A DNA stretch of 64,000 nt from Apostichopus japonicus (lineage: Eukaryota; Echinodermata; Holothuroidea; Aspidochirotida; Stichopodidae): positions 3,921,001-3,985,000 of the forward strand of contig NC_092571.1 in NCBI RefSeq assembly GCF_037975245.1, written 5' to 3'. The notes beneath the pieces are model-generated. The model saw nothing but the letters and a program-made list of their open reading frames with translations, did no database searches and was not told the DNA's origin. Of this stretch, positions 7,428 to 34,106 are shown in pieces (the stretch's first letter is position 1; every line of letters begins with the position of its first letter). The translations under genes were made by a program, and so were the position numbers.

Positions 7428-7870
7428 CACTCAAAAAAATGAAGTGTTAAATTTGAATCGTAAAGTGTTGAATTTAACACCCCACCCTGTTTGGATTAGG
7501 GACAACACCCACCGGGTTAAATTAACACTTCAGAAGTGTAACATAATATAACACTTTGCGAGTGTTGCCTTAACAACACCCATACAAGTGTCAAAATAAC
7601 ACTTCCTGGTGTTGAAGGTACACTACAGGGAGTAAAATTAACACAATAAAGTGTTCATTTGTTAAAACTTCTGGGTGTCAACATGACACTTCAGGAAGTA
7701 AAATTAACACCATAAAGTGTTCATTTGTTAGCACTTCTGGGTGTCAAAATTGCACTTCAGGGAGTATAATTAACACTCTAGTGCACATTTTTTGGCCTTC
7801 TGGGTGTCAAAGTTCTGCTTCAGTGAGTATAATTACCACCATATAGTGTTCATTTGTCATCTGTGTCAAG
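7428..7870. repeat. Subterminal repeat array of element 1
   Basis: After the terminal repeat come units of about 80 bp containing variants of AACACTTC, GGGAGTAAAATTAACAC and AAAGTGTTCATTTGTTA. The same words recur inverted at 12920-13052. Subterminal repeats of this kind are transposase-binding arrays in CACTA-like elements; that role is inferred here. Confidence 0.7.
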
Positions 7871-8325
7871 ATGATACTTAATGGACTCTCAACACACAAT
7901 AGTGCTCTCTCGTTTATACTTCTGGATGTATATTTAACTGCTGGTTTGTAAAGTTTTACATGTTTATTATGTAACACAAATACAATACTGTTATGTAAAA
8001 TTTTGCCAGAAAAGTTTACATCGCACCCGTTTAGTAAATATTTGATACAGGTTTTAGGTTAATTATTACCTAGTAATTAGGTAAACAATATGGATGCATG
8101 TTTGAATCGCTCACAGCAGAAAGCTACATTTAAGAGAGAGCAAACAGCAATGACAACACAAACAATTCAGAATGTGGGATTTTCAGCAATTAAACACCCT
8201 ACTACCTTCCTATTCCAAAGGTCCATTTATTATATCCCATTAAATGTAAAACGAACAATAGACACAATCGGCGACCGGCGTCACGTGACCTATAGTGGGT
8301 ATACAATGTAAACAAACCAAGTGCG

Positions 8326-8568
8326 GTGTATGGCAACAACATGTATTCCCTCATGAAAAATCATCCTCATGGGTATTACGATCAGGTCCAAGGACAATTA
8401 GCAATCTCAGGGTTATCATGGTGTGACTTTGTTGTATATTTAAGTGATTCACTTGAGATGGCAGTAATAAGGATACTGTTTGATGAAGAATATTGGAATA
8501 GTTTGTTAAGTAAATTGAACAATTTTTATGTTAAGTCTCTTCCATTTATCATATCTATGTCAACATAA
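8326..8568 (+). pseudogene. YqaJ-like exonuclease fragment (C-terminal part)
   Basis: An 80-codon open frame contains NHPHGYYDQVQGQLAISG, WCDFVVYLSD and LFDEEYWNSLL. These resemble the end of the YqaJ (lambda-exonuclease-like, 'viral recombinase') domain, where the QxQxQ-type strand and the WCDFVV strand follow each other. The domain's N-terminal half is missing because the frame begins beside the transposon's left terminal repeat, so an internal deletion removed it. ISL2EU elements carry such a nuclease beside their transposase. It is not expected to be active. Confidence 0.6.
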
Positions 8569-9577
8569 AGAAAGTGGAAAACAATATGATTTCTGTGTTT
8601 AGTCCATTCCATTTATCAGATCTATGTGAAAATGTGCATAAAAAAAAGCTGTATATATGTCTACTACAGTTGTATTTATTTGACAAAATAAATAAATGAA
8701 AGCCAGGTTGACACCGAACAAACAGTATTATTGTAAGTTTAATTCATGTATTCAACACAATAACTATCATGTACTGAATAGAGTATACCATCTACAGTAT
8801 GTCATCTACAAAAACAAATTCTTTTCAACACTACCTTGAGTTGATAGATTAATGTATGATGCCTGGCAAGAGGAAAATTATTGCAGTTACATGAAAACAT
8901 CCTATAATTTGACTGAATAATACATGTAGAAATGTTGGCCTAGCCAGCTGAATTTCTTCATGTGTAATCTGGGGGGGGGGGGGCTGCTCTGACAAAGACA
9001 AATAAAAAAGATGACAATATGCAGGGGTTATTATCTGTGATGCATGGTAAACTTTATGAGTGTACGCATGACCACCCCCCCCCCCAAAAAAAAAAAATCC
9101 TTGATCTGCCCCTGGTAATAAATACAACATGGAAACATAATCATTTAACTTTTAAGGCAATGAATGGCAGTAAATTAACATTAACAACAATCTTTATAAT
9201 ATATTGGTTCGAGGTAACACCATGATCTCTCAATGAGTTGGGGTGGTTTTAGCAACTCAACGTTTCGATTAGTAAGCTCTGATCGTCTTCAATACCATTG
9301 TTTGTTCAGAACCACCCTAACTCATTGGGAGATCATTATGGTTTCACCGCAAAAATTACTGGATAGTATTTCCACCATGCAAAGTTCAAAATCCTACTTT
9401 ACAATCCTACTCCTAGTCCACAATCTTATACTTTGGTTCATATAGCACCTGCATTTCAATACTGATATTAAAAAAAACAAAAAAACAAACTGCATTTTAA
9501 GGTACAGCCAATAATAACTACTCTTGAGAAAGCAAGATTTGAGCCGAACAGATCATCAACATAAACAAAATGTAAAA

Positions 9578-10582
9578 TCACTCGTCTCCTCCATCAGAAA
9601 TAACAGGGTTCTGGAAGTTTGAAATCAAACAAGCTACTGTCCAAATTTGGTTTATAGTTCCAAACATGGATACAGGGATCAATGACTGGAAAATTCTGAA
9701 CCTTTTGACTTTTCCTATGGCTCTTTCTACATGGATTCGATGTTGTGCCACATCTGAGCTCGTATGATGTCTTTTTCGCTGAAGTAACCATTTTCCCTCA
9801 GGAAGGGGGGGGGGGGGGGAACATTTACTTTTAAGGCAAGTTCTTGAAGGTCTTCTCCAATATTAAAACCCCGATCTGCCATGATACCGTCCCCGGCAGG
9901 ATTTCTCCACATTCAAGTTTCATTTTTAAAACAGTGAGAAACCCACTTCGCTTTACTATTTCTTTATCGCTTATTGACCCTTCGAAAAGTTGCGAAACAA
10001 ACATCACGCCACCCATTGGGTCTACGCCAATCAATGACTTTAGCGTAGTGTGGTGCTTATAGTTGCTGTAGCACTCACTCTGTTTCTGAAGTGCACTTGG
10101 CACTTGGACAGTTAGTTTAGTGGTATCTATGATTATGACCGTATCTTTATATTTTTCTTGAAATTCCTTAGGTGACTTTTGGATGATTATGTCTCTGTGT
10201 GGCCAAATGTTCAGTGTTCCCAGTGCTATACGTACAGTAGATTTATCCATGTTATTATTTTGTTTGACACTGTACTGTTAGAAATGTTGAAGCGTTCTGC
10301 AAGGTCCCGATTTTTTGCCCCGGATCGTAACTTCATAAGGGTTAACAAAAGTTCATTTTGCACTGTCATTTTATATGAACTGTTTTGAATTAAATCTTTC
10401 TCTTCATCTCCTGCATCATGAAATTCATATGACGATTCATTAAGTAGCTGTTCAGTATCAATCAGTCGATGTTTACTCGCTTTGCTTCCCCAGTAGATCA
10501 CATCTTCATTGTCCAAAGTTGGACAAACAAACCTTAAGAACTGCTTGAACCTCTCATATGATGCCATCCCAGTGAAATGCAT
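9578..10582 (-). pseudogene. ISL2EU/Harbinger-type transposase (HTH_Tnp_4 + DDE_Tnp_4), frameshifted
   Basis: From 10582 downward: MHFTGMASYERFKQFLRF, then a helix-turn-helix block (LLLTLMKLRSGAKNRDLAER, ISNSTVSNKIITWIN). After a frameshift near 10230-10250 come WPHRDIII, VIIIDTTKL (first Asp), NYKHHTTLKSLIGVDPMGG and SISDKEIVKRSG. After another shift near 9895 come GIMADRGFNIGEDL (second Asp), VPPPPPFLREN and FSEKDIIRAQ. After a third come HVERAIGKVKRFRIF (catalytic Glu), NQIWTVACLISNFQNP and TGA at 9578-9580. All three acidic residues of the DDE triad are present, but at least three shifts make it a pseudogene. A C/G run (about 9806-9819) at the PPPPP position is one likely lesion. Confidence 0.85.
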
Positions 10583-10799
10583 AAATAGTTCATGCTCGAT
10601 CCTTTCATTCTTACACTTAGAGAGTAAAACTACGACAATCCCCCGTGCTTAAACACTGCACACATGTCGCGCGATGGTTTGTTATGATTCTGTACCCACT
10701 ATACGTCACGTGGCCACCGCTGCTCGGAGTCGCCGATTGTGTCTATTTAGGCTATAAAAGTATTGTCTTGTGGAATTAAGTCAACTTAAAAGTGCCAAC

Positions 10800-11335
10800 A
10801 TTTTCAAATGCTACAGTGCAGTTACTTGGTCTTTATTTTTTTGCACATGCCTTTTGGTTTCTAGATTAAAGACAAAGAAACAACTCTTCCCAAAGTCAAT
10901 TTCAAATAAGCAACAACTTTAGAAAAATTCTGATCCATGGGATGAGAAAACATGGAGTGCTGTGTATGATGACTGCTACACTACTGTGACTATGTCTTTG
11001 TCGTTGGCAAATGCCTTTTGGTATTCCAGATTAAACGCAAGAAACAACTCTTCCCAAAGTCAATTTCAAATAAGCAACAACTTTAGATATATGCTGATCT
11101 GTGGGATGAGAAAACGTGGAGTACTGTCTATGATGACTGCTACACTGCAGTTACTTTGTCTTTGTTGTTGGCTCGTGCCCTTGGTATTCCAAATTAAACA
11201 AAAAGAAAAAACTCTTCCCAAAGACAATTCCAAATAAGCAACAACTTTACATACATTCTGATCCGTGAGATGAGGAAACATGGAGTTCTGTCTATGACAA
11301 CTGCTAAACTGCAGTAACTTTGTCTTTTTTGTCGG
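10800..11335. repeat. Tandem repeat, about 163-bp unit, three to four copies
   Basis: The block containing CAACTCTTCCCAAAG, AAATAAGCAACAACTTTA and GATGAGRAAAC repeats with starts near 10851, 11017 and 11178, plus a partial copy at the end. It lies in element 1 between the ISL2EU insertion and the SAMD3-like exon, and overlaps that exon's last codons, so the exon's end seems to have been amplified. Confidence 0.75.
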
Positions 11336-11633
11336 CACGGTGAGCATAAAAATCTCGAATCTGGTTGCGTTTCACACCACCAGGCAACTTGTAGACAACT
11401 TTTTGGAAAAATTCCCAGGCACCGAGACTTGCAATTTGGTATAATTCAGATTTAACACGTAGAATAATTTGAAGCAAACATCAATGGCTTCATAAATGTC
11501 CTCTGGGGTAGGGCATGTCTCTGGATGATCACAAATGACTGCTTGGGGTGTATTTTGCTTCCTCCAAGAAGTAACACATATTGCTGAGGTCTTTCTGAAA
11601 TCTTTTGCAAATAGAATTCCAAGTTGATGCTTC
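11304..11633 (-). pseudogene. SAMD3-like C-terminal exon, decayed
   Basis: An acceptor (TTGTTACTTAG) precedes 11633. The exon reads in three successive frames: QQYVLLLGGSKIHPKQSFVI, then EDIYEAIDVCFKLFYVLNLN, then AWEFFQKVVYKLP to TAG at 11304-11306. These blocks occur in that order at the C-terminus of the SAMD3-like (sterile alpha motif domain-containing protein 3-like) proteins that are numerous in fish. The last exon of element 2 has the parallel blocks VVKGIDVCFKTFQVFHIEYP and PWTFLQRGIY. Two frame changes within one exon show decay. The family's biochemical role is unknown. Confidence 0.7.
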
Positions 11634-12223
11634 CTAAGTAACAACAAAGAAAAGAAAAGAAAATTCCCATCATAATGAAGTTGTGTTAAAACCTTCTTGG
11701 AGCATAAGCAGTTTTTTACATGTACCCCTCACAAAACATGAACATTCCTAAAGAAAATGTACACAATTTAATCAGTTGTGATTCTAACTTCTTCAAGTAC
11801 GTTTGAATCTAGAAAGCCAGATGGCCTATAGTGATTACTTGTCAAAACAGGAACTTGCATTAAACTTTCATCAGACAAGGTAGGCAACTTTTATAACCAA
11901 CGCATCATGTTAACAATGCTTAAAACAATGCTCACTCCCACTGTATGCAATTATGTAGATTGATATGAATTATAACAGCTAGATCACTTCCATAAGATAG
12001 CTAAATTATAGTTGGGCCTAGGTCTAAAAGTATCACCAATCCACATCAGCTTCGGCCTACTTGCTACAACTTACAAGCTAAAATGGCAATTAGTGGTAAT
12101 TATATATTGCATTACATGAATATATGTTTATCCCTTATTGAACATATAGTACCAGCGTAACTATAGGCCCATGCCCGATGCTATTTAAAATGCATTGTCT
12201 TGAAATAGCCTAAGTATACCCTA

Positions 12224-12290
12224 CTAGTACTAGGCCTAGTAGGCCTAGTAGTACTACTTAGGCCTAGTAGGCCTAGTAGTACTACTTAAA
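12224..12290. repeat. Short palindromic tandem repeat
   Basis: AGGCCTAGTAGGCCTAGTAG and CTACTTAGGCCTAG recur back to back, each rich in the self-complementary words AGGCCT and CTAG. Inside element 1. Confidence 0.6.
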
Positions 12291-12623
12291 AAGGTGACTC
12301 GCAGGGTATACGAAGTTACGGTTAACGCACAAAAAGGAATAGAATGCACTAGATTACAATAAAGGCCTAGACCAAAGTCCTCCGTCCGTCCGAAGGCAAT
12401 TCCGTTTAATGTTTACTTGTATGTAGGCTACACTGATTCGTTGACAATTATGAGTTGACTATGACAAACAGCAGCTAGCCTATTATATTAACTTATAGTA
12501 TGACTTTAACGTTAGGTCTACGTAACGCAAGCGATTCAAATGCATTCGTCTACCCAGCTTAGTCGTTGGTCTCTAAGCATATCTCGTTCTTGTCACGTAC
12601 ACTTACATAATATCAAAACATAC

Positions 12624-12713
12624 CTTCGAATTTTTCAATCAATTCTTCCAGGCCCCAGTCTCCTATAACGTCATTTTCATGCCATTGTAGCTCGTTATCG
12701 CACACCGAGTACG
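12624..12713 (-). CDS. SAM-domain first exon of element 1
   Basis: The minus strand reads NDVIGDWGLEELIEKFE and then a phase-1 donor (GAAG|GTATG) at 12623. It aligns with the first exon of element 2 (ILTEWNLEMLHEVFE, donor GAAG|GTAAGA), with the intron at the same codon and phase. The pattern is helices 1-2 of a sterile alpha motif. No in-frame ATG is clear just upstream, so the start is uncertain or lost. The second SAM exon was not found between here and 11633. Confidence 0.6.
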
Positions 12714-12919
12714 TAACGTTTTGTGGCTTGAACGTATATATGGCTGTGGTTACTATAGTACATTTAGTAACGATAAATGTCGACAAACTGGTACAAGTAT
12801 TGCTAGGTACGGTAAATGGGTGTTCACGGTACGGTGGTACCGTTTAAACACTTAACTTACACTAAGAATCCAGCTGACGGGAGGTTTGACCAATCAGAAT
12901 GCTCGAACTGAAAGTACAC

Positions 12920-13052
12920 TTCTGCAGGTGTTAAAAAATCCACGCTACATAAATTATGTAACCCTACTCAGGGTCAGAGTAACCCTTCAGGTGTAGGGTG
13001 AACGGTTACACCTGGAAAGTGTTAAAATTCAACACTCCATTTTTTTTGCGTG
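12920..13052. repeat. Right subterminal and terminal repeat of element 1
   Basis: Contains CAGGTGTTAAAA, GTGTTAAAATTCAACACTCC and ends TTTTTTTTGCGTG|TA. It is the inverted counterpart of 7428-7490. Confidence 0.7.
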
Positions 13053-15688
13053 TATACGTGCGTGGCTTCAGTTATTCGGCCACATCGGAGTTTAATATTA
13101 AAAGCTCCATGAATCGAAGAAGTTGTTGCAGTGTTGCAAAACAATAAAATAGAAACTTAAGTTAAATGCAATTCCTTGTCTCCATTATTTTTTCTAGATA
13201 TGTTATTCCAATACAGAATATGTTAATTTTTTGGTTACGTTATCGTTAACACAAGCTTCAAACTGGATTCATGAAACTTTCTCAAATTCTTAAAGGAAGA
13301 AATATAAAGTACCTCAAAAGATCATCATATAGGTTACTCGTGGGTATCTCTATCGAACAGGGTGTTAAAATCACATTTAGTCAATAATAAACCAGGCACG
13401 TACAAAGTATACTCACTAAAACTTAATCCTCAGTTTTGTTTTTAATAATGACTGACGCAAATTGACTTAACACAGGTAATAGTGAGAATCTGCCAACATG
13501 GTTCAAGTTATTTCACCACTCAACAATATTTTGCACTAACGTTATGGTACAGCACGAAACGTCGACAACAAAATATAAAACGTTTAATTTCTTTTATTAT
13601 GTGTTTTGCTAGATATTTCCTTTTATTGCAATGCAGAATATGTTAGTCTATACATTGCCCTTACGAACGAAGAACTTTAAACCGCATTCTTGAAAACGAT
13701 TATAATCTTATCATTGTTCTTCAAAAAGAGAAGGAGACTTCCCATCATGTTTCGTCCAAGATAATCACCCTTGACACACATATAGTGTAAAGGAAACTGC
13801 AATGGTGATGTGGTTTTTTTTATTGCTCCAAAAGCCTTGAAAGCTTTGTACATGCGTTTTGCAACTGCGCTTTTTTGGGGGATTATGGGGAAGGAGGGGG
13901 GGAGGGGGGCTTCAGGTTTTTTTCAAACAATTACAGGTGTATAGAAATAAAAGATGTGAAGTTGCTTTTGCGGGATATGGTACATCTGAGGTAGCAGGTT
14001 CTTTCGATGGTGATAAATGACTTGCGGCTTCAAATTGAGGCAGATTTGTACCGTTTTGTCGAGACGTGTTATTTCGGGCCGTTCTTATTTAGGGAGCTGA
14101 TGGTCCTACGTGCTAGCTACCCCTTTACAACTTCAAGTTTGTTTAGGTGTTGAGTTGGAAATGGGAAATTATTGTTGCTAGGATTTTAGTTTCTGTGGGG
14201 ATCGGGTTTGGCTTGTACCGCTGTTTTGGCTGGGCCTTTTTGGGTTCTGCTAGTGGGCGGGTCGCCCTCTAATTAAACTTTACATTTAACAAACACACCA
14301 AAACAGCCAATCGATATTATATATGTATTTGTTAATATGTTTAGCTTGATGTACAATTTAATTTTGTTGAACAAAATGAATCACATTACACCAATAAACT
14401 CATCGATACATATTGTTTCAATGAAGAAGTGACGAGTTGATTTATAACAGACACTGAAAAAAGATTACCTCATAGTGGAAATGTAACATAGTACCTTCTA
14501 AATTTAGACGTTCGATGAAACAGAAAGCAGGAACTTTAAACATGTCAGCCACATCGTTAAGGTACTACTTGCCAGTCACAATATTCGTCGGCCGTAGGTT
14601 AAGAAAGATATTGTCAGCAAAGATAAAACCCTGGCGAATATGCCAATTTACCCAAAATTAACACTAGTAGTTGTTGAAGGAAATATATATAGTGTAAATA
14701 ATATATGTGATCTTTTCAAGACTCCTTTGTTTCTTATTTAAACGACAAACAGATGATTGAACCAAACCAGTCCTAAACAATGATTTTTACATGAAAAAGC
14801 TTTTGTCTTTTCTAGCGATGCTACCACTACATGGAATATATTTTCAGTCACCGTTGTAATCATTAGCCTCACTCTCCACGTCTAGAGTAAAATGTTGTAA
14901 CTTGCCCGCTCCAACGAGGTCATTGTCGTCTTCGGTATCCTGTGATAGGTATGAATTTAAATATTTTTGATTAATGCCATGTAAACACCTTAAAGAGAGG
15001 ATGAAATGGTGGGTTTTCATGTGTTAGAATGGTTTATCTACAATACTACAACACCACCCATTCACTACTTTCCGTAAATGCAGCTGCAAAAGCCAGAAAT
15101 TCGCTGTCGAAGTATTCCCTACAGACATCCCGAGCAGACTCTCGTGAAAAAACACAAAGCTTCCTACTGCAGACCATATGACGTCAGAAAAGGGACAATT
15201 TCAGCCAAAGCCGACTCCCCAGTTGTTACTTTTACTGCGTCATACAGTTTACTACGTACAGGTAACTACAAAAAACTCTCCTCTTCAACTGAAAGTTTTC
15301 TCCCGAATCTTTCGATTCGGAGGAAATGGGCCTTCACCTCTCAGAACTTTCGTAAGCTTTGACGAAAATTATTTTCTTCCCTACTTCTAACCTTTTTTGT
15401 AAAGCCATTTAAAGCAATTAAAAATTTGCAATCAGCAGATTTTGCATTTAGTAATCTCTTTTCTATAGACAACTGGAACACTTAAACAAATAGTTGTATT
15501 AGTGCAGTTAACCATATTCCTTCCTTTCGCTTTGTTTTATTTTCTGTTTGAATATGTTGCAGAAAGAACGATTTCAATACTCCAAAACTCATGGACAGCT
15601 TAAAATGTCTTGCTTTTTTACCAATCATTGTTATGGGTGAAGTATGGCTTGCTCGATGAGGCTGGAATGAAATGATTCTAAGATTATG
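13053..15688. other. Intergenic, no gene recognised
   Basis: No exon with family motifs and no terminal-repeat element seen. The open frames at 15078-15390 match nothing I recognise on either strand. Confidence 0.4.
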
Positions 15689-15827
15689 TCAAAGACAAAA
15701 CAAAATTGATTGCATCCTTGCCTGTCCTATTTCATGAAAGGAAGAGCAAGTAAGGATTTGGCAAATCTCATGTACTGACGGTCGACTCGCTTCCGACGCA
15801 TCCCATGACTGAAGCATCTTACAGAAT
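15689..15827 (-). CDS. Receptor last exon: kinase subdomain XI to stop
   Basis: Acceptor GGGGGGTAG. Phase 2 entry gives FCKMLQSWDASEASRPSVHE and ICQIL, the helix H-I block with its CW/RP-type signature (SWD...RP), then a short tail to TGA at 15691-15689. Confidence 0.7.
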
Positions 15828-17040: not shown

Positions 17041-17129
17041 CTGGTAATGCGGAAAAACAATAAGTCAAAAATGATTAACTTGAATGCGTAAAAGAAAGAT
17101 TAGCTATACCCGATACATGAAACAAAATG

Positions 17130-17136
17130 TGCATAA

Positions 17137-17182
<46 letters not shown>

Positions 17183-21574: not shown

Positions 21575-23095
21575 AATTAATGACAGGCTCCTACAGAAAG
21601 GGTACATATAATAAACGCCATCAAACAACAGACAAGCTTTTACAGAGATGGTACATATACTTAACGCCATCAAACAACAGACAGGCTCCTACAGTGATGG
21701 TACATATACTAAACGTCATCAAACAACATACAGGCTTCTACAGTGATGGTACATATACTAAACGCCATCAAACAACAGACAGGCTTTTACAATGATGGTA
21801 CATATACTAGGCGCAATCAAACAACAGGCCGGCTTCTACAGTGATGGCACATATAACAAACGCCATTAAACAACATACAGGATCTTGCAGTGATGGTACA
21901 TATAACAAACGCCATCAAACAACAGACAGGCATCTACAGTGATGGTACATATACTAAGCACAATCAAACAACAGACAAGCATCTACAGTGATGGTACATA
22001 TACTTAACGCCATCAAACAACAGACAGGCATCTACAGTGATGATACATATAATAAACGCCATCAAACAACAGACAGGCTCCTAGAGTGATGGTACATATA
22101 CTTAACGCCATCAAACAACATACAGGCTCCTACAGTGATGGTACATATACTTAACGCCATCAAAGAACAGACATGCTCCTACAGTGATGGTTCCTATACT
22201 AAACGCCATCACATAACAGACAGGCATCTACAGTGATGGTACATATACTTAACGCCATCAGACAACAGACAGGTATCTACAGTGATGGTACATATAATAA
22301 ACGTCATCAAACAACATACAGGCTTCTACAGTGATGGTACATATACTAAACGCCATCAAACAACAGACCGGCTCCTACAGTGATGGTGCATATAATATAC
22401 GCCATCAAACAACAGACAGGCTCCTACAGTGATGGTACATATACTAAACGCCATCAAACAACAGACAGGCTTTTACAATGATGGTACAAATACTAGGCGC
22501 AATCAAACAACAGGCCGGCTTCTACAGTGATGGCACATATAACAAACGCCATTAAACAACATACAGGATCTTGCAGTGATGGTACATATAACAAACGCCA
22601 TCAAACAACAGACAGGCATCTACAGTGATGGTACATATACTAAGCACAATCAAACAACAGACAAGCATCTACAGTGATGGTACATATACTTAACGCCATC
22701 AAACAACAGACAGGCATCTACAGTGATGATACATATAATAAACGCCATCAAACAACAGACAGGCTCCTAGAGTGATGGTACATATACTTAACGCCATCAA
22801 ACAACATACAGGCTCCTACAGTGATGGTACATATACTTAACGCCATCAAAGAACAGACATGCTCCTACAGTGATGGTTCCTATACTAAACGCCATCACAT
22901 AACAGACAGGCATCTACAGTGATGGTACATATAATAAACGCCATCAAACAACACACAGGTTCCTGCAATGATGGTACATATACTAAACGTCATCAAACAA
23001 CAGAGAGGCTTACACAGTGATGGTACATATAATAAACGCCATCAAACATCAGACAGGCTCCTACAGTGATGGTACATCCAATAAACGACATCAAA
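21575..23095. repeat. 49-bp minisatellite, about 31 units, with higher-order duplication
   Basis: The unit holds CTACAGTGATGGTACATATA and AACGCCATCAAACAACAGAC. Since 49 is not a multiple of three it is not coding. A distinctive run of variant units (AATGATGG, TAGGCGCAATC, GATCTTGCAG) near 21780 recurs near 22468, about 14 units later, so a block of about 686 bp was duplicated within the array. Intron of the kinase-like receptor. Confidence 0.9.
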
Positions 23096-23103
23096 AAAGA
23101 TCA

Positions 23104-23920
23104 TAAGCATAGGCGTAGGTGCCTCATTTGATTTGGGGGGGGGGGGGGCTGTAACGACTTGCCCGAAAAATATAACCAGAATTTTTCGCGCGCTCCGCGC
23201 GCAATCCACATGTTACTGTGCGTATCATATAGGCATTCATCGATTATTACACCACATGCCAATAACATAATATCATTTTTCGTGTTATTACCCTTCCATA
23301 TTGGTTAGAATTATTGGGGAAGTTGTTGCAACAATAATGATATTAACAATAATATAAGTTTAACCGTTAAAAAACACAGTGCAAATTTATCTTCTTCTTC
23401 TTGGTCAGGGGGAGAGAATGGTCTGTAGGGGCGCTTTCGACACTATCCACCACAGGTTGGCGCGGAGCGTACAGAAAATTTTTGCGTAAAGATACTCCCT
23501 AGATCGCCGGAAATGACCCTTTCCAGGCCTTGCTAATTTGCAGATAAACGAAGAATAAATAGGTGTCATCGCCATTTGTCAGAAAATTGCACCAACAAAA
23601 TGTGACAAATGTCAATAGGTTTTTGAGAGCGCAATAAACAAGTCAATAATCGCGAATAAGTAAAGAGTGGTAAAAAGCTGAAAAGGGCGCCAGCAGTCCA
23701 TTTGAGTCCGTCAGGGGGGAACGCCCCCCTCTAACTGTATGGACGCTCCGCCACTCAGCATATTGCCCAAATTTTCACTAAAAAAATTGAAAAACACAGT
23801 GCAAATTATTCTTTTTCCAGTAGGTGCCCGAAAAATTCTCAGCATCTTGCCCGAATTTTTCACCAAAAAAATGGTTGGGGGGGGGCTACAGCCACACCCC
23901 CCTCCTCCTATACTATGGAC
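23104..23920. mobile_element. Composite of hAT-like non-autonomous elements
   Basis: Poorly matched ends (CATAGGCGTAGG and, reversed, CATAGTATAGGAGG) flanked by similar 8-mers (ATCATAAG, GACATAAG) enclose long G runs and a second element at 23402-23756. The outer boundaries are tentative. Confidence 0.4.
23402..23756 (-). mobile_element. hAT MITE, third copy of the 60282/63007 family
   Basis: Reversed, it starts GAGTGGCGGAGCGTCC and keeps TGACATTTGTCACATTTTGT, CTTCGTTTATCTGCAAATTA and ACCTGTGGTGG of the family. The far terminal repeat is missing, replaced by CTTCTTCTTC. The sequence GAAAAACACAGTGCAAAT lies on both sides of it. Confidence 0.7.
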
Positions 23921-25773: not shown

Positions 25774-26152
25774 CTTCCACTTGTATCACGTATTGTATTT
25801 CTGTTTTATTTATTTTGCAAGTAAAGTTTCCTTCGTGACAAAGTGATACATTTTTTATATGGAGTGTGTTGTTCTCATAAATTTCAACAGTGTCCTTAAA
25901 TGGATCTCTGACATAAACAAAGTTTTCTATTATAAGTTGTCCATTGTGTAACCATCTGCCAATCTCTCCATCGGACAGTGCACACGGAAGTTCAATGAAT
26001 GATGAAGTAGGTACGTAGCACACATGTGTGCAGTTGTCCAATACGGTAATATTCGATGCAATTAGATTGTAACTATTCAGAAAAACGAGCATGAACATTC
26101 TCCAAAGATAAGTCGAGGATACAGTTAAAGTAGCAGTAATCTTCGCTGCCAT
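25774..26152 (-). CDS. Receptor exon 1: signal peptide and one Ig domain
   Basis: ATG at 26152-26150 opens a hydrophobic leader (YLWRMFMLVFLNSYNLIA). One Ig domain follows: ELPCALSDGE (strand B Cys), RWLHNGQL (core Trp), LHIKNVSLCHEGNFTCKI (strand F Cys). Several N-x-S/T sites are present. Donor GAAG|GTAGGT, phase 1. Confidence 0.75.
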
Positions 26153-28205
26153 TGCTTGTGAATCCTCCACAAATCAAGGGATACCTTACTGGTGTCAGAT
26201 TCATGTATTGAATTGAGCAGACATTTGTCGCTGTCATCCCTGCTGTTGCTTCCTTGTCAGTCTTTCTCAGAATGAAGATGACTAAAGCGTGTGTAGTGTT
26301 GTTTTCATGTGAAACTAATAGTAAAGGGTGCATGTAACCAAAGGGAATCCGTGCCTTCTTCTTTTTGCGAAAACTACCCTATATAGGCTACACATCATGT
26401 CCACAATCGGAACACAATTTTTTAACCCTTGGTAGATGCTGGTAGTGTTAAGGAATAGCTGTCAACTAAAAATTCACCTTTGTAACCTCCCTGTGGCGAA
26501 GCGCCTTTAAACACAGCATGTAAAGCACAATAGCATTGCCTGAGCAGCACATTAGTACATCACAATCTGAGAACATGAGCTGGCTGGCTGAATCAACATT
26601 TTGAGATACGTAAGCACAAGTAGTTATCCTGTCGGAACAATATGTTATTTTCCTAATATATAGTAAAATGATAACATATATCTTCCATATTGAAACTAGT
26701 TATTCATAAAGCTTATATTACAAGCCATCATTATTTATTTCTAATTGCTCTTTTATCTTAACCTATTAAGTACGTCAGTAAAAATACAAAACTAGAACGG
26801 AAATATCTCGGGAAAATATACACGTGACATCGACATTACCAAATACGTCAATAATACATGATCTATGCGACAGGTGTATCCAAATTTAACCCAGAGAGTA
26901 ACTTTTTTTTAAACAACTGTGGAAATGAATGTTGGTGATTTGTTTAATGATAATGAACTTATAGTAAGGGAGTTTTCAATCGTTTTTCTGACACATCTTT
27001 CAGCCCACTTGGCCAGAAAGTCCATCATATATGTACTGAGCTAAGCAAATTTGGGCATTGCACTGACATTTGATATACATTTAGTAAGCTACAGGTTTGT
27101 TGTCATTAATCATTTCTTGTGTGCTTTGGGCTAAGTATAGATGTATGAAAGGGACATTTCTCATACTGAAAGTCATCCATGTAATCCATGACATCTATTA
27201 GAATAAGCATTTGATACGTTCTCCTAACCTCAAACTAACCTATATGGTCACTTTTGATTACTGTACATCAACTATACCCATTTTTTGAGCTTTAAAATTC
27301 GCTATGTCATTTCATAAGCAGTCTCAGCATTACATTAAAATTACTGTTTGAAGAGAAAGGAGGAGAAAGGATGTTATCTTTCTCCGCAGACTATTGTCGA
27401 ATTTAAACAATGTGTTTTTAAGGCATTCCATGTGGCTTATGGTGATTATTCGTAATTATTTAGGATAACTGAAGGATTTTTAATTAAAACACAAAGTTCA
27501 AGTATATCAATTTGTGTTTTTGAATCGCACATTGCTAGGCAGCTTGCAAGATCCACTGAAAGTTCCAACGTTTGTAAGATAATATTAAGAAGAAACAAGA
27601 AACCAACAGGGTAACTGCAGTTCATAATGCTTCATTGGAGAGTGTGATGACCTGATTTACCGAAGTACTTACGGACAAGTCTGCTTTACTAATCAGCTAA
27701 AGCAAATGTCCAGAGAAATTATTTGGACCGGTTTGGCATTTATTACTTTGGTATATTTCGTCAATTGAGATTTATTAAGTATAGATTGAGGTTGTTAAGA
27801 CATTACTATCAAAGCAGTTTTTTTTTAATAAAATGAAACTGCCAAAAGGTATGGTGTAATTGAAGTACGAATGGTACACTACGCTCAGTGTAAATTGTTT
27901 TCAAACATTTCGCACTTGGCCCGGCCTAAAGTAAGCTTGCACATTAACTTCATGAGCTTCCTTGCCACTTTATATGTTGATATTGTGTGATATACGTCGG
28001 GAGCGCAGGTGCGTATTGTTATGGTTAAAGGTATATGATGAACAATTTCTCAGTTTGGTATTATATCTTACATTTTGTTTCAGATCTTAGTGTCTTCAAG
28101 TATAATGTTACAGTCACATGTGTGTTAGAAAAGTTCCATTTGCCAAACGTTTGATCTGGATCAATGGTGTCATCTAAGCAGCCAAGGAGAAATTGACACC
28201 ATATA
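26153..28205. other. No gene recognised
   Basis: AT-rich sequence between the receptor's first exon and element 2. It should hold the receptor promoter and 5' UTR, but I cannot identify a core promoter. Confidence 0.4.
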
Positions 28206-28380
28206 CACTGCAAAAACAAATTGGTTAATTTCATAACCAATTCCATTGTTTGGAATGTAATTGGTCAAGCCAACCATTATATTGTTTACTTGTAACCAAC
28301 GTACACCAATTTAGTAGGTAGTCCTGAACATTAGCAATAGGTTAACTACACCAACAATAATTGGTTCTAAGTACGTCATT
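28206..28380. repeat. Left subterminal AACCAATT repeats of element 2
   Basis: Repeated AATTGGTT, AACCAATT and TTGTAACCAAC words follow the terminal repeat. Confidence 0.75.
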
Positions 28381-28600
28381 ATATGAGTCATATCCGTGAC
28401 TTTGTTCTCTGCATGCTTTGGCTCGCCACGCGCGGGAAACCGCTCTCCGTTTAATTGTGTGCGTCCACCACTAGCACTGCACTGCAATTTATTGTGTTAA
28501 CCACCCAGTTACGTACGTACACAACACTGATGAGTGCACTCCAGGCACAACGGCAAGGTGTACCAGGTAAACTAAGCTAATTCCGCTCATTTTAATCGAC

Positions 28601-31600
28601 ATGGACCATTACGTGAAGAACATTCTAACAGAATGGAACCTAGAAATGCTTCACGAAGTCTTTGAAGGTAAGAAGATTATGTAAATTGTGCAGTAATAAT
28701 CAATGTATTGGCATTACTGTAGGCTAAGGTTATACGGCCTAGCCTACCAATGCAACTTTAGTGACATGACAAGCGACGTTCGCCTAGTGTTACCACTAAA
28801 TGTTAAGCCTAACATTATGATATAATAGCGCTGTAGGCCTAGGCCTCCTACAGTGCTGCGTACACTACTGTACCTGCAGGCTGAGGTCTGTCCTAAGCTA
28901 GCACTGGACTAGTGTTATACTTGCTTACTTTTTTTTTAAATTTTGTTTCTCTGGAACTTGGAGGGTAGCTATCCAGTCAAAATGTCCCCAGACCAAAACA
29001 TCCCTGCATTTTTAGCAACCAAAATGTCCCCGCTTTTTACCAAAATGTACATGGTATTGTAATGGCCTATTGCCAGTATTGGGTACAAAAATGTCCCAGC
29101 AGCTAGGAAATGTGAGAGGAATTTGAAAACTGAGTGTAAGGACGGAATTAGGAATGCTGAATTTTTTTCATCAACACGTTTTTATAATGTTAGGCCTGGG
29201 CTACTTGCTCAAGAAGAGGGATGGAATAATGAAGAAAAGTATACTTAGGGCCGTCAACCACTTCAATCCTTCGCATATGGGCTGTATGGTAGTACATTGC
29301 ACCACGTACTAGCCTATATACTAGCCTAGTCACTCATTGTAGCCTATACTAGATGCACGTAACCCAAGCACTCATTGTGTTGCAAGTACTGCAGTAGGCT
29401 AGCACTCTTCAATTTTCCAGAAAACTACTGTGCCTTATCAGTCACACCATCAACTGTGTTTTATTTTAGTTATTTTGCATTAACAAGACTCAGAGATTAA
29501 GTAGCATGCTAAATCATGTTTCAAGAGTGGAGTATATCACACAATTTTAGAAAGGAATAGATGAGACAGTTCTTAAAGGGCTGTTTGCTCGGTGAGGGTG
29601 GGTTTAGTGGCATGTCACATGTCCCCCTAAAAATTATCGCTGCCCCCAAGTACCCCCAACGTCCACCATATGAGATTGACAGCCCACTTTTGTAAATTGA
29701 TGTGTGTTATATTGCTGTAATGTACCCTCCTGTAGAACACTGAGTTTACTACTGTTTTTGAGGGTTCGTGGAGTGCACTATGTAGGCACACAGTGCAAGC
29801 TACTCTATTAATATCAACTGTACACTTCAATATTCTCCCTATTAAATTGTGTGATTAACGGTATCAGCTACAGAACAGTATATCCCATATTTAATCGGCA
29901 ATTGCAAAATGATACAAAAGGCCATAGGTGGAAAGAGTTGGGAAGCTGGGAGGCTCCTCCCTGGGATATTTGTTTACTTGAAGGGAAATTTTAGCATGTG
30001 GAGGGAAAGTTTTGTTTTTTACATGGAAACATGGAAGAAATTGTGGACAATTTTAGTTCAACTCCCTTCCTAGGAGATAAACATTTTTTATCCAGCTCCG
30101 CAAAAGGATTACAGTTGGCATACTGTACTGTAGCTTTACTTGCTACACTCCGCTGTTCTGTAAATGTTTATTCTATTTGGGGTTAACTACAGATTAGACC
30201 AACTTATATACTTGTCTTTTTGCCTTCTGAACAGAAAATGAAATCAACAAAGAAGCATTATTCTTGCTTGGAGAAGAGGATGTAAGGGCATGGATCCCAA
30301 AAACTGGCCCTCGCTTGAAATTTTTGAAGCGTCTAGCAGACCTCAAGGTGAGCCTCCTCTTCGTACTGTAGTTTTGATTCTGTGACTAGGGCTGGGCTCA
30401 TGGGGTACACATGTTATGTATGTAAGAGGGATTTGCCCCTTTCAAGTTTACGGTGGCATCTAAAAGTGTTACATGGTATTAATAGTGATTCCTCAACATA
30501 CATGTGTTACCAGGATGGATGTATGCGAACTTTCACAAGATACTGTTCCTACAGAAAACATTTGGTTAATGTACATTCTGATAAAATGTCTGAAGAGGAA
30601 CCACATAGGCCTACCGATGGACCCTGTGAAAACCATGGGATTGTACCAGCAAATGTAAACCAACAGCAGGACAATGATAGCGAGTCTACATCTGATTATG
30701 AACCTGTTTGTGAAGTTTCACCTGAAATATTAGACTTTGATGAACATGGTGTTTGTACAGAAGCTGCTCTTTTTGTTTCAAAATTGAGATCATGTAGTTC
30801 TATGACCATGTCAAGCACTTCATTTGTTATTGAAAGTGTGTCCAGTATGGTGAAGAACATTGTAGGAAACTTGAAAGCTTCAACAATTGAAAGTTTTAAG
30901 AGGTACGCAGACTCACCAGAGGAACCGTCTGTCATACTTGAGAAACTTGAAGAAAACTTTGATTCACTGAGTGAACCATTTCAAGGTTTAAACTCAGAAT
31001 ATCTGGAGAAGAAGTACTTTTTAGCGACTGGTACACTCGTGCAACCTGAAGAAATTTTGTTAGGTCATAGATTTGAATCGAGGATGCATGCTGAAACTGG
31101 AATTTCTCATCAAGTTCAAATTAAAGATACTTGTTATTACATCCCTCTTAAAGCTATGATGAGGAATTTTCTGCAAGCGCCAGGCGTATGGCAGGCCATG
31201 CAGAGTTATAAATCTCACAATGACAGCATACTAAGAGATTTCCACGATGGTCGTTAGGGTTGATCACTTTAATAGTCGTATGGTGAACGCAAAATTGGGG
31301 CAAAAACTTTCTGCAACTCCCTCCTCACATAGATGTGTAAGGCATTACTGTGGAGGGTTTTTAAAAGCTTACTTTATTCTGTTATGGCATGAGAATAACT
31401 CTGTGTTTGTTTATGTATTCTTTATCAGGATTACAAGAACTGACTGATGATGAAGTAGGGGAAAGAAAGGCCTGGCTTCGTCATAATCTTGCTCCATCTG
31501 ACACTGTACAGCAATATATGAGGGAGACACAAACAGCACGGCTCTCATGGATACACGGGGATGAGCAACCTTCGCTGAATAAAATTTTGGAGGAATATCC

Positions 31601-32574
31601 AAGATTCAAGGACCCCAGCGGCCACCACTGGGTATGGAATACTGTACTGTAGTCCTATTGTTTCTCTGATTGTGATGACTTTTGCAGGAATGCTCATGAC
31701 AATTGTATTTAGTTTGCACAAGTTAGTTATTATCATGCATTAAATTGTCAAATTCATTAAAGTGGGTATGACACGGCCAAAGTAAGTTTCTCAGTAAATG
31801 ATCTTTGGGTACAACTTGAAATAAAGCGAATGTTTTCCCGACTAAACTAGTACGTCCATAAACACAGGAATACGACCTTGTGAATTCCCAATTACAGGCC
31901 AGACTCAGCCCGTCTGAAATCTGAAAGCGAAAAAACGTATGTGCGCGTATCAAGCTCGTGACGTCATTGGAGGCACGGTTAGTAACCAGCCTAGTAACAC
32001 TGTACCAGGCAACTCATGTTTTATCTATCCGTCCTTATTGCAACTTTTATGATACTGTTTTTATGATTTCAAGTGTAAACATTCAATTAAGTGTGCTATA
32101 AAACTAAAGCCATTTTACCAAGTGGTTTCTCTGATCAGTATTATGAATTCTACCATTAAAATTGTCTTGACAGCAGTTTCCCTTTTCTGATAGGCTATTG
32201 TTCTCATTATAAAACTATGCACAATATTGCTGTTTACTTTCTTCAGAAAGGTTGGAATGGCAAATGTTTTAACAATGCAGATTCCGTCCATAGTGCTTGC
32301 CTGCCCGCAGGTCGTAGTAATTAGCACCTCCATTCTGGATGTTCAGCAAGTCTTTGTATTTTTGAACAACATTGTCTATTCAGTGCCCTCAGTTGTTAAA
32401 GGCATAGATGTCTGCTTTAAAACTTTTCAGGTCTTCCATATTGAATATCCATTGGAGTGTAAGTCTCCGTGGACCTTTCTGCAGAGAGGCATTTATAATA
32501 TTGAAACACAGTATGATTCTGTAACACCACGGGTAAGAGAACTGCTGTCGATCCTGAGACTGGACTCTGACTAA
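28601..32574 (+). CDS. SAMD3-like gene of element 2 (SAM domain + C-terminal domain)
   Basis: Exon 1 (28601-28667) starts MDHYVKNILTEWNLEMLHEV. Exon 2 (30235-30347) continues NEINKEALFLLGEEDVRAW and TGPRLKFLKRLADLK; together they form a sterile alpha motif (about residues 4-58). Exon 3 (31429-31631) reads LTDDEVGERKAWLRHNLAPS and LSWIHGDEQPSLNKILEEYP. The last exon (32311-32574) reads VVVISTSILDVQQVFVFLNN, VVKGIDVCFKTFQVFHIEYP and PWTFLQRGIY, then TAA. These blocks follow the order in fish SAMD3-like proteins. Exon 2 ends in phase 0 but exon 3 needs phase 1, and the family's middle is missing between exons 3 and 4, so internal pieces are lost or unseen. The role is unknown; SAM domains mediate protein-protein or RNA contacts. 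Confidence 0.7.
30400..31257 (+). CDS. C2H2 zinc-finger protein of element 2, truncated
   Basis: The likely start is ATG at 30400. Two C2H2 fingers open it: YTCYVCKRDLPLSSLRWHLK with VLHG, and YMCYQDGCMRTFTRYCSYRK with HLVNVH. An acidic linker (NDSESTSDYEPVCEVSPE) follows, then FVSKLRSCSSMTMSSTSFVI, PEEILLGHRFESR and YYIPLKAMMRNFLQAPGVWQ up to ILRDFHDGR and TAG. I recall fish and cnidarian proteins with this finger pair and the L-R-D-F-x-D-G block, which continue with a large domain containing YYDDxExxNPLGSK. Here the frame ends at the LRDF block, so that domain is absent. It sits between SAM exons 2 and 3 on the same strand. DNA binding to the terminal repeats would suit a transposon protein, but that is inference. 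Confidence 0.65.
   Translation: MGYTCYVCKRDLPLSSLRWHLKVLHGINSDSSTYMCYQDGCMRTFTRYCSYRKHLVNVHSDKMSEEEPHRPTDGPCENHGIVPANVNQQQDNDSESTSDYEPVCEVSPEILDFDEHGVCTEAALFVSKLRSCSSMTMSSTSFVIESVSSMVKNIVGNLKASTIESFKRYADSPEEPSVILEKLEENFDSLSEPFQGLNSEYLEKKYFLATGTLVQPEEILLGHRFESRMHAETGISHQVQIKDTCYYIPLKAMMRNFLQAPGVWQAMQSYKSHNDSILRDFHDGR
32018..32310 (+). repeat. Intragenic direct duplication, first copy
   Basis: Nearly identical to 33248-33538 (GTTTTATCTATCCGTCCTTA to GTGCTTGCCTGCCC). The copy ends at the acceptor of the last SAMD3-like exon. Confidence 0.9.
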
Positions 32575-33247
32575 ACTATGGTGGACATGTGCAAGGCTTC
32601 TGCTTGGCCATTAAAGGGGCTTATTGAGTTGATATTGAATATTTTTTGACAAGTCTGAAAAGAGATCATTGCATGACAATATTTGTAATTAGCCTCCTTA
32701 TTCATGTATCACTTCCTGTAGTTACTGAAAATGTTGGAAATTGGTGTTTTTGTGGACGGGTTGCATAACTATTAATACTTGCAATACCAGGGAGGGGGGT
32801 GTTACATGTCCCTTTTTGTAAATTTTATAAATTTTTATGGAATAAAAAACAGGCAAAGTTAACATGTTACAATGTGACTGAATTTAAGTCTGATGTAATG
32901 CATACCATGAAAGTATGTCACCCAACTTTTTATGGCATGCAGTTTTAGAGTATGAATTTCTGACCCTTGATATCTGTTTATTATAACCATGTTTGTACTC
33001 CTTAAGTATCATTTGTTTTATTACTTGAAGATACTAAACATCCACCTGAGTTATATGATAAGGTTTCAGTGGAGTAAGGGTTAAAATCTTTCATTCATTT
33101 GTCCGTCCACTAATTTTGGTTATGTTGTTACTCAAACTGATGAAGTTTTCTGAATATTAAAGCTTGGGAACGTTTGTTTTTGAAGCTTTTCTTCAAATTG
33201 AACAGCTATAGTTTTCCTTATATTTAGCAACATGAATTTTTGGGGAA

Positions 33248-33538
33248 TGTTTTATCTATCCGTCCTTATTGCAACTTTTATGATACTGTTTTTATGATTT
33301 CAAGTGTAAACATTCAACTAAGTGTGCTATAAAACTAAAGCCATTTTACCAAGTGGTTTCTCTGATCAGTATTATGAATTCTACCATTAAAATTGTCTTG
33401 ACAGCAGTTTCCCTTTTCTGATAGGCTATTGTGCTCATTATAAAACTATGCACAATATTGCTGTTTACTTTCTTCAGAAAGGTTGGAATGGCAAATGTTT
33501 TAACAATGCAGATTCCGTCCATAGTGCTTGCCTGCCCT
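33248..33538 (+). repeat. Intragenic direct duplication, second copy
   Basis: Second copy of 32018-32310. After CCTGCCC it continues into TTTATTTAATAAAAG, so the exon was not duplicated with the intron end. Confidence 0.9.
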
Positions 33539-33859
33539 TTATTTAATAAAAGCTCCATTTCCTGTTGTTTTTTTCTTTATTTGCACACGCACAGTCGGCA
33601 CAGAAAATTGTAAAATCTTATATGCATTGTTGCATCGATATTGTTTCTTTGCAAATGAACTAACCTTGACTGTATACCTCATATCATCCTTGCCATATCA
33701 TTTTATGTAAATTGCATGCTGTTGTAGAGTTCCAAGAGCAATACATGATTGTGTTAAAGCTATAATACCATAAAAAAATGTTGTTCGATTCATTTTTGGC
33801 CTACACTGGAGAGCTGCAGTGCTGGACGCTGGAACAGATGAGGGAGAGCTGACTGAAGT

Positions 33860-34106
33860 CAACAACCAATAACCAATTAATTGGTTAAGGAACAGGATTG
33901 GTTATGTCAACCACATAAATTGGTTGCATAATTGGTGGACTTAACCAATTTTATTGGTTAATGTAACCAATTTTCATTGTTTAATGACTTAACCAATTGA
34001 TGTTGGTTATGGTAGCCAATTTATTGGTGGGACTCACAACAAGTGATCAAATTGGTTGAAATTAACCATTTTTTTGGTTGCATTCAACCAATTTGTTTTT
34101 GCAGTG
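33860..34106. repeat. Right subterminal AACCAATT repeats of element 2
   Basis: At least ten AACCAAT / ATTGGTT words in alternating orientation lead to GTTTTTGCAGTG at the end. Confidence 0.85.

Follow-up and report, generated by a model that had tools for sequence, protein, structure and literature searches.

The closest described systems are transposons of the CACTA, or EnSpm-like, kind. In maize Spm the tnpD open reading frames lie within intron 1 of tnpA, and the target-site duplication is 3 bp. Fish EnSpm elements have CACTGCAAAA ends, and the SAMD3-like genes of fish show a SAM / IDVCFK arrangement; SAMD3-like genes are annotated as host genes. Among animals, SmTRC1 of Schistosoma belongs to the CACTA superfamily and is reported to have 2-bp duplications, a Transposase_21 region, alternatively spliced messages, and a second short protein proposed to be TNPA-like (PMC1636069). 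The CMC(T) group is defined by two motifs, C(2)C and H(3-4)H, between the second catalytic D and the last E of the transposase (PMC12730594).

The window examined here is a 64,000-nt stretch of Apostichopus japonicus (GCF_037975245.1, NC_092571.1, forward strand, 3,921,001-3,985,000). A sequence-only reading of it held that its SAM genes are transposon-borne accessories found in several families, and this is supported in this genome, where such a gene recurs in several families whose ends differ. The SAM protein seems to be a helper belonging to the transposon and not the product of a host gene; on sequence grounds, animal CACTA/EnSpm-like (CMC clade) transposons that target TA have it as their second gene. 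In the open-licence literature we found no account linking SAM or SAMD3 with CACTA, EnSpm or transposons, although one may exist elsewhere.

These elements resemble maize En/Spm in having an accessory and a large transposase product encoded in one exon stretch on one strand, in their CAC termini, and in their subterminal arrays. Family U5 has its transposase within the first intron of the accessory gene, like the tnpD frames of Spm, whereas in most of the SAM families here it lies in intron 2. Unlike Spm, the elements are flanked by TA, and the helper carries a SAM or putative ubiquitin/PB1-like module followed by middle and C-terminal parts without a Pfam match. With SmTRC1 and other animal TRC elements they share the CACTA superfamily, 2-bp duplications, a short second protein and possibly a Transposase_21 region, matched weakly here; SmTRC1, however, has CCC rather than CAC termini, and for its PrA and PrB no relatives could be detected in other elements (PMC1636069), while all 12 families read here share the helper. 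ESTA and other CMCT lineages likewise have an EnSpm-like transposase bearing the C(2)C and H(3-4)H motifs, end in CA..TG and, in the case of ESTA, show TA duplications; the ones described are fungal, and the sections consulted report TET/JBP cargo but do not mention a SAM helper (PMC12730594).

Elements A and B

The two elements of the window (Table 1) have the termini and TA flanks that had been assigned to them from the letters alone: TA precedes CACTCAAAAAAATGAAG and follows TTTTTTTTGCGTG in A, and precedes CACTGCAAAAACAAATTGGTTAA and follows TTTGTTTTTGCAGTG in B. The half-SAM first exon ending at a phase-1 GT, which the same reading had noted in both, is there, as is the C-terminal IDVCFK block, A's copy of which is a relic. 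The subterminal arrays also hold up, with AACACTT occurring 9 times in A and AATTGGT 14 times in B within the two 450-bp ends, counts reached by none of 200 dinucleotide shuffles and none of 50 interior block pairs.

Table 1. Features of elements A and B, in window coordinates.
Feature	Position	Strand	Remarks
Element A	7428..13052	-	non-autonomous, CAC..GTG, flanked by TA; relic of SAM gene reads on minus strand
A subterminal array	7428..7721	.	AACACTT / AAGTGTT; two more at other end
A nested PIF/ISL2EU-like element	8257..10747	-	HTH_Tnp_4 + DDE_Tnp_4; boundaries approximate
A SAM-gene C-terminal exon relic	11334..11625	-	IDVCFK block, three reading frames
A SAM exon 1 relic	12624..12690	-	no in-frame ATG, phase-1 GT at end
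Element B	28206..34106	+	CACTG..CAGTG, TA on both sides, truncated transposase and SAM gene exons
B 5' subterminal array	28206..28420	.	AATTGGT / ACCAATT
B SAM exon 1	28601..28667	+	first half of SAM, phase-1 donor
B SAM exon 2	30235..30347	+	second half of SAM
B C2H2 CACTA-like transposase, N-terminal fragment	30400..31257	+	first ATG to stop, without catalytic part
B central exon of SAM gene	31428..31634	+	boundaries approximate
B C-terminal exon of SAM gene	32305..32574	+	IDVCFK..EYP..FLQ, in frame to stop; 5' boundary approximate
B 3' subterminal array	33870..34106	.	AATTGGT / ACCAATT

Only a relic of the SAM gene is left in A: there is no ATG in the exon 1 frame, the C-terminal exon is split over three frames, and neither SAM exon 2 nor a central exon was detected in the element. 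The PIF-type insert nested within it is ~2.5 kb long; an A-like copy elsewhere (L026) runs continuously across the insertion site without it. The first 273 bp of A occur in at least 40 copies at ~100% identity (40 scored of 110 candidates). A SAM C-terminal remnant lies at most 6 kb inward in 40/40 scored copies and is enclosed in all 27 for which the right end was also listed, and 25 of these 27 measure 2.9-3.7 kb. Copies inside a family are near-identical and thus do not count as independent evidence.

Element B is more complete. Its SAM exon 2 and central exon enclose a 301-codon frame, missed in the sequence-only reading, that corresponds by similarity to the N-terminal third of the full-length transposases. 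Its joined SAM exons match PF00536 with E=0.0018 and 19.0 bits, under the cut-off of 23. The first 215 bp recur in 11 copies at ~100% identity, with exon 1 in 11/11 and the C-terminal exon in 10/11, as judged by comparing coordinates by eye. Both elements are internally deleted, non-autonomous members of families whose full relatives lie elsewhere in the genome.

Full-length relatives and their transposase

A full copy with a DDE transposase, which the sequence-only reading had proposed looking for, was found in E7, E8 and E13, each with paired terminal repeats, SAM exons and a single open C2H2-DDE transposase frame. Full elements are ~12 kb long, with CAC..GTG ends and TA flanks, and have on one strand, in order, SAM exon 1, SAM exon 2, the transposase frame, and the middle and C-terminal (IDVCFK) exons. 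In all four full copies, which were picked since both genes matched, SAM exon 2 is followed by an open transposase frame of 831-860 codons and then by the later SAM-gene exons. SAM exon 1 is present in three of them; it was not found in E20, which is nonetheless consistent with a transposase-in-intron layout. The transposase lies within SAM intron 2 in E7, E8, E13, U8 and, as a fragment, B, and within SAM intron 1 in U5.

CAC..GTG termini were found in A, B, E7, E8, E13, U4 and U7; the ends were unconvincing in U1, U3 and U8, none were found in E20, and the stretch analysed for U5 stops short of the 3' end. In searches without a TA requirement, the terminal repeats matched at 21/23 positions in E8 and 28/29 in U4, and TA stands on both sides of each of these two elements. 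The E13 repeat matches 12/12 after TA and recurs in a second copy, L020, and E7 also has a terminal repeat pair; for E7, E13, U7, L020 and L022, TA was either included in the search word or guided the choice. At 2 bp, TA falls in the 2-5 bp range of the CMC(T) clade and is, on this evidence, the probable target-site duplication. Subterminal arrays are present in E8 and E13 as well as in A and B. The subterminal words of E7 are not significant (6/200 shuffles reach the count), those of E13 are modest (1/200), and the E8 count is also reached by 4/50 interior block pairs.

Across the catalytic region, a 12-family transposase alignment shows, in this order, an invariant D, C(2)C (11/12, E13 being one spacer residue short), H(3)H (12/12) and E (12/12). 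The catalytic identity of D and E is inferred from motif order, and the C(2)C and H(3)H motifs place these transposases in CMC(T). Transposase_21 matches weakly in 6/12 families (best E 6.6e-4; two scores of 14.5 and 12.4 against a Pfam cut-off of 28.6), and DUF4218 matches in 2/12. The solved structures that match the transposase are zinc fingers, a search of NCBIfam gave unrelated weak matches only, and no transposase relatives were found in viral contigs.

The helper gene and its proposed role

The exon borders given here are predictions from GT/AG signals and sequence similarity in genomic DNA. The phase-1 GT at the end of SAM exon 1 is the same in E7, E8, E13, U5, U8, A and B. With exons joined, E8 (26.0) and E13 (24.1) exceed the SAM_1 (PF00536) gathering score of 23, and E7 (14.7) falls below it. 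A SAM profile matches solved SAM domains with an E of 1.8e-5, the closest being those of BICC1, ANKS6, SHANK2, ANKS4B and tankyrase, with L3MBTL3 and Atherin among the weaker matches. Several of the closest five polymerise.

Eight more transposase families, chosen as having been missed by the SAM screens, have helper exons downstream in 8/8 cases, and the helper gene is present in 12/12 families read. Further families within this transposase clade carry the same helper, with its middle and C-terminal domains, behind a different N-terminal module: some helpers begin with a second SAM-like module or with a putative ubiquitin/PB1-like one, a call made by appearance, with no such Pfam match and a best solved match, to the BILBO1 N-terminal domain, of E=0.63. 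In the PB1-type families U1, U4, U6 and U7, the coding exons of the helper start after the transposase, so that nesting is not general. The helper yielded no identifiable DNA-binding fold, and no Pfam match was found for the C-terminal exons, the U4 exon or the U3 middle exon; against solved structures the C-terminal part gave a weak RanBP2 match (E 0.075).

The helper exons show signs of purifying selection at the codon level, with dN/dS of 0.25-0.43 in 5/5 U4-type comparisons and 0.07-0.20 in 3/3 E7-type comparisons, each set having one shared reference. All five U4-type copies compared are frameshifted, over two or three frames, and one also has a stop. In U5 SAM exon 2 reaches a stop ahead of a clear donor, and an in-frame stop interrupts the C-terminal exon of E20. 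Identity in the transposase is correlated with identity in the C-terminal part (r=0.77, p=0.002, n=8).

How such a gene pair might work can be sketched. A single promoter near the 5' end would give one pre-mRNA, from which splicing over the transposase would yield the helper, and keeping that stretch, or an internal start, would yield the transposase, in parallel with maize En/Spm tnpA and tnpD. At each end the helper would bind the subterminal repeats peculiar to its family, helper molecules would be joined head to tail through their SAM (or ubiquitin/PB1-like) module, and the assembly would bring the two ends together and recruit the transposase. Taken entire, as a transposon's second gene and a spliced, end-pairing helper, this explanation seems to us quite probable.

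A broader proposal is tentative. An animal CACTA clade might share one ancient TnpA-like helper with a swappable self-assembly head (SAM, a second SAM-like type, or ubiquitin/PB1-like) that pairs the ends by polymerising on the subterminal array of the family in question and is co-transcribed with an intron-borne transposase; vertebrate SAMD3 and fish SAMD3-like genes would then be copies or domesticated descendants. If this were true, a gene family annotated as host would be transposon machinery, with changes to gene counts and annotation, and animal CACTA elements would have a conserved helper open to experiment, together with a model of end pairing by a polymerising head on the subterminal array. 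It also raises the question of whether vertebrate SAMD3 is a tamed transposon protein.

Several alternatives have to be weighed. First, it is possible, though not probable, that the protein is the same transposon helper without alternative splicing, the transposase having a separate promoter within SAM intron 1 or 2 or arising by re-initiation past the short SAM reading frame. The first transposase ATG lies just past SAM exon 2, and the read-through SAM frame ends 31-37 nt short of this ATG in B, E8 and E13 and 622 nt short of it in E20, and overlaps the transposase start by 26 nt in E7; in the PB1-type families one gene simply follows the other. Relative to SAM, the transposase reads in the +1 frame in 5/5 elements, an offset that may reflect descent. 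(A fused SAM-transposase protein was also considered and is rejected because the two frames differ in all five.) Against the unspliced scheme, the transposase interrupts the SAM frame in every family with both exon 1 and exon 2 identified (E7, E8, E13, U5, U8 and, by a fragment, B), so that splicing across it is needed, and alternative splicing in Spm and alternatively spliced SmTRC1 messages are on record (PMC1636069).

Second, and doubtful in our view, the helper could counter host silencing or repress the element, its SAM domain recruiting or blocking chromatin proteins, without end pairing. Spm TNPA reactivates a methylated promoter and represses an unmethylated one (PMC1636069), and the TET/JBP genes of fungal elements are thought to aid escape from methylation-based silencing (PMC12730594). 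The weaker SAM matches to L3MBTL3 and Atherin point the same way. However, no enzymatic or chromatin-reader domain was found in the exons scanned, and subterminal arrays composed of the terminal word point to a protein that recognises the ends by their sequence, although one acting at the promoter could account for them too.

Linkage of the SAM gene to the transposase

A third possibility, very unlikely on the present evidence, is that the SAM genes are host genes captured or sat upon by transposons, through transduplication or chance nesting. Genome counts, made with single-protein queries, are lower bounds. Among at least 134 transposase loci and at least 186 SAM C-terminal loci, 32 downstream same-strand pairs lie within 25 kb, against 0.46 expected, with no downstream-opposite pairs and 3 in other arrangements. 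With a third query came 17 further pairs, all of them downstream and on the same strand, bringing the union to 49 of the 134 loci. The constant order and strand in distant families, the lack of downstream-opposite pairs, the helper in 12/12 families, the agreement of transposase and helper at family level, and a SAM split at the same intron phase all speak against capture.

In favor of host genes, 152 of the 186 SAM C-terminal loci are more than 25 kb from any listed transposase, and two loci, L019 and L026, adjoin NACHT-like ORFs. The sequence-only reading expected terminal repeats around the SAM genes and would have yielded to a finding that most such genes lack them. Repeats surround the genes of E7, E8 and E13, but a terminal-repeat pair was found at only 2/8 unlinked loci, sampled at random from the 152, leaving six without, and this sample does not dispose of that objection. 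Thus, it cannot be claimed that every SAM copy sits inside an element, and some could be host genes or worn remnants; on the other hand, old copies lose their ends, and the loci counted are those listed.

Finally, that both window genes are chance SAM-like frames in repeats is vanishingly improbable: the gene in A is broken, the exons are short and the joined SAM of B scores below the Pfam cut-off, but E8 and E13 pass SAM_1, the match to solved SAM domains reaches 1.8e-5, and the helper exons bear the marks of purifying selection.

Elements A and B and their copies

The sequence-only reading had described two TA-flanked elements, A and B, each carrying a SAMD3-like SAM gene that it took for a transposon-borne accessory protein and not a host gene. 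In the window (C11:3921001-3985000 of genome G000, 671.6 Mb, whose gene content points to an animal host), the coordinates, end sequences and flanking TA of both were reproduced, the terminal word of the subterminal arrays occurs 14 times in B and 9 times in A (counts reached by none of 200 shuffles), and a half-SAM exon 1 ending at a phase-1 donor is present in each; thus, the observation is real. A and B are derivatives of fuller elements.

A belongs to a high-copy family, with at least 40 copies of its first 273 bp at ~100% identity (40 scored of 110 candidates), and a SAM C-terminal remnant lies inward of all 40 scored left ends. The 27 copies for which a right end was also listed measure 2.9–3.1 kb (13), 3.4–3.7 kb (12) or 5.4–5.6 kb (2). 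The window copy is one of the last two, longer because of a nested PIF-type insertion, whose frame is in broken pieces; L026, an A-like copy, is continuous over this site and lacks the insertion, and L019 has 0.7 kb of different sequence there. The gene of A is dead: exon 1 lacks an in-frame ATG, neither SAM exon 2 nor the central exon was detected within the element, and the C-terminal exon is readable only across three frames.

B is better preserved than A. Eleven copies among the matches listed share its 5' 215 bp at ~100%, and, compared by eye, all 11 contain exon 1 and 10 the C-terminal exon. In B, SAM exon 2 and the central exon are separated by a 301-codon frame that aligns at 27–30% identity with the N-terminal third of transposases from six other families (E7, E8, E13, E20, U5 and U8, described below). 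The first copy of a direct repeat in B ends at what is the start of the SAM-gene C-terminal exon.

Positions of features in the window and in fetched loci
Sequence	Positions	Feature	Detail
Window	7428-13052	Element A	gene on - strand
Window	8257-10747	PIF/ISL2EU-like DNA transposon nested in A	HTH_Tnp_4 and DDE_Tnp_4 matches; inverted ends AATAGACACAATCGGCGAC
Window	21582-23104	Tandem array	period ~49 bp; copies ~85% alike
Window	28206-34106	Element B	+ strand
Window	30235-30400	Frame comparison in B, SAM exon 2 and transposase	transposase +1
Window	32016-32306, 33247-33537	Direct repeat in B	291 bp; 99.3% identical
L019	1473-3512	P-loop (GQPGSGKTMLSSQLAYDW) frame	gene strand
L026	1629-3746	P-loop (GQPGSGKTMLSSQLAYDW) frame	gene strand
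L025	2150-2485, 7211-7522	Two differing helper C-terminal-like blocks	one strand; ~5 kb apart
G000 C9	12289576-12568576	Seven SAM C-terminal copies	one strand; spacing ~41–52 kb

Linkage of transposase and SAM gene

Genome searches with the 301-codon frame of B (131 scored of 177 candidates) and with its SAM exons returned many loci with both close together on one strand, and four were fetched (E7, E8, E13 and E20). The full copy with a transposase that the sequence-only reading had proposed to look for was found in all four: SAM exon 2 is followed by an open transposase frame of 831–860 codons and then by later SAM exons, with exon 1 detected in E7, E8 and E13. By tblastx comparison, the SAM-gene product (hereafter the helper) has a middle domain (motifs PSSF.KE.LA.AIV.AFPCL and LEEHLRYRRKR) and further W..N..P, IEQDF..LY..W and C-terminal exons, the last interrupted in E20 by an in-frame stop. 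TA is found at both ends of E7, E8 and E13. The ends of E8 form a 23-bp repeat (91%), the top inverted match of its stretch in a search without a TA requirement, and those of E7 match at 20/24 in a search requiring TACAC on both sides. The E13 pair TACACGCTAAGAAC (14/14) was among several matches no better than chance (E 1.1) and was chosen for its TACAC start, a choice supported by L020, a second copy with identical ends. Terminal ends of E20 were sought and not found.

Merging of matches, with second fragments of a locus and matches to other SAM exons excluded, gave at least 134 transposase and at least 186 SAM C-terminal loci, from the best 106 of 358 matches for the transposase core and the best 150 of 433 and best 150 of 665 for SAM. 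At least 32 same-strand pairs have the SAM gene downstream within 25 kb (0.85–12 kb apart) versus 0.46 expected; other arrangements within 25 kb number, among the matches listed, none downstream-opposite, one upstream same-strand and two upstream-opposite. Because only the best part of the candidates was listed, the 102 partnerless transposase loci mean little. As a test of such loci, we fetched eight transposase families chosen for absence of a SAM C-terminal match (U1–U8), and in every one of them helper exons follow downstream in the same orientation. The helpers match one another (E13–U8, 4.7e-26; E13–U5, 5.7e-11; U2–U3, 2.2e-49; U6–U7, 1.9e-17; U4–U6, 7e-4; U1–U7, 3e-5), and a U4 helper query finds U3-type exons at 7e-6 and U2-type exons at 2e-4. 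The C-terminal block is present in U1, U3, U4, U5 and U7 and was not seen in the 10 kb fetched for each of U2, U6 and U8. The U4 query contributed a further 17 pairs, all of them same-strand downstream among the matches listed; with all queries, a helper exon is listed downstream of at least 49 of the 134 transposase loci. C-terminal identities track those of the transposases (Mantel r=0.77, p=0.002, n=8).

Eight of the 152 C-terminal loci with no listed transposase within 25 kb were drawn at random and fetched. Flanking terminal repeats, expected around most SAM genes, were found in two (L020, with E13 ends, 12/12; L022, 18/20); in the other six, no pair with at least 10 matching end bases was found, with TACAC required and both ends within 10 kb. 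These six may be host genes, old copies whose ends have been lost, or elements with ends beyond 10 kb. Two loci, L019 and L026, carry diverged A-like copies that adjoin P-loop frames of 680–706 aa, presumably NACHT-like; over a long stretch these loci duplicate each other. The seven-copy series on C9 suggests a large tandem duplication, and the two blocks of L025 are probably two neighbouring or nested elements.

Transposase identity and gene layout

A 12-family alignment keeps the D before NPL, the D of GDNL, HD..EG, K.H...HY (H(3)H) and the E of RFEAKH, with C(2)C kept in 11. PMC12730594 gives C(2)C plus H(3-4)H, between the second D and last E, as a mark common to EnSpm, Mirage, Chapaev, Transib and relatives, which mostly have CA..TG ends and 2–5 bp duplications. 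Pfam detects Transposase_21 in 6/12 families (best 6.6e-4) and DUF4218 in 2/12 (0.014); with a solved-structure profile, it also suggested N-terminal C2H2 fingers. In L012 and L013 (U2 and U3), the transposase has a longer N-terminal zinc-finger part, and a YPASFRDDIGGEVIGDG segment is strongly conserved.

In the layout ARRANGEMENTS, the transposase stands after SAM exon 2 and ahead of the later exons (E7, E8, E13, U8 and B); E20, where exon 1 was not found, is consistent with a transposase after SAM exon 2. The order in U5 is SAM exon 1, transposase, SAM exon 2, which places the transposase in intron 1; with a stop ahead of any clear donor in this exon 2, the U5 copy is possibly damaged. In U1, U4, U6 and U7 the helper starts after the transposase, with a putative N-terminal module that looks ubiquitin/PB1-like, and in U2 and U3 with a different SAM-like module (SAM_TNK E=0.02 and 6.9e-4, neither reaching the cut-off). 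In the midpoint-rooted transposase tree, the families with a split SAM group in a single clade, which U5 adjoins (supports 96/96 and 100/100), and U2/U3 fall among the PB1-type families. Terminal repeats enclose transposase and helper in U4 (28/29 bp) and U7 (12 bp including TA); a terminal-repeat search gave no convincing pair in U1, U3 and U8.

SAM_1 scores above cut-off in E8 and E13 and below it in E7 and B, SAM profile matches include BICC1, ANKS6, SHANK2, ANKS4B and tankyrase, and the other helper exons scanned gave no meaningful match to Pfam. The helper may be linked to SAMD3 of vertebrates and to the SAMD3-like genes of fish. Against one common reference for each type, so that values are non-independent, a U4-type exon gave dN/dS of 0.43, 0.34, 0.30, 0.29 and 0.25 for five diverged copies (one-sided p 0.016 to 0.0002), and an E7-type C-terminal exon gave 0.09, 0.20 and 0.07 for three copies (p 0.04, 0.054 and 0.011; few changes each). 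Frameshifts split the five U4-type copies over two or three frames, and an in-frame stop interrupts L035; part of their changes is thus unconstrained, which would raise dN/dS.

Proposed expression and role of the helper

In B, E8 and E13, the read-through frame of SAM exon 2 ends 31–37 nt short of the first ATG in the transposase frame; in E7 the two overlap by 26 nt, and in E20 a gap of 622 nt separates them. In all five, the transposase is read in the +1 frame with respect to SAM exon 2, so simple read-through does not fuse SAM and transposase, and the simplest scheme would be a single pre-mRNA in which splicing decides between helper and transposase. This scheme resembles Spm, where tnpA–tnpD are made by splicing of one pre-mRNA, and SmTRC1, for which similar splicing was proposed (both from PMC1636069). 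Elements that encode a second, TNPA-like protein beside the transposase are already known; in open-licence papers, Repbase aside, we found no conserved SAM/PB1-headed helper gene enclosing the CACTA transposase of an animal element.

Head-to-tail polymerisation is possible for both SAM and PB1 domains. In the proposed role, the helper would attach to the subterminal words, with its head (SAM or PB1-like) linking molecules. Beyond A and B, the terminal word occurs 10 times in E8 (0/200 shuffles reach this), 6 times in E13 (1/200) and 5 times in E7 (6/200, not significant). Among 50 interior block pairs, those reaching the word count number 0 for B, 4 for E8, 0 for A, 1 for E13 and 7 for E7.
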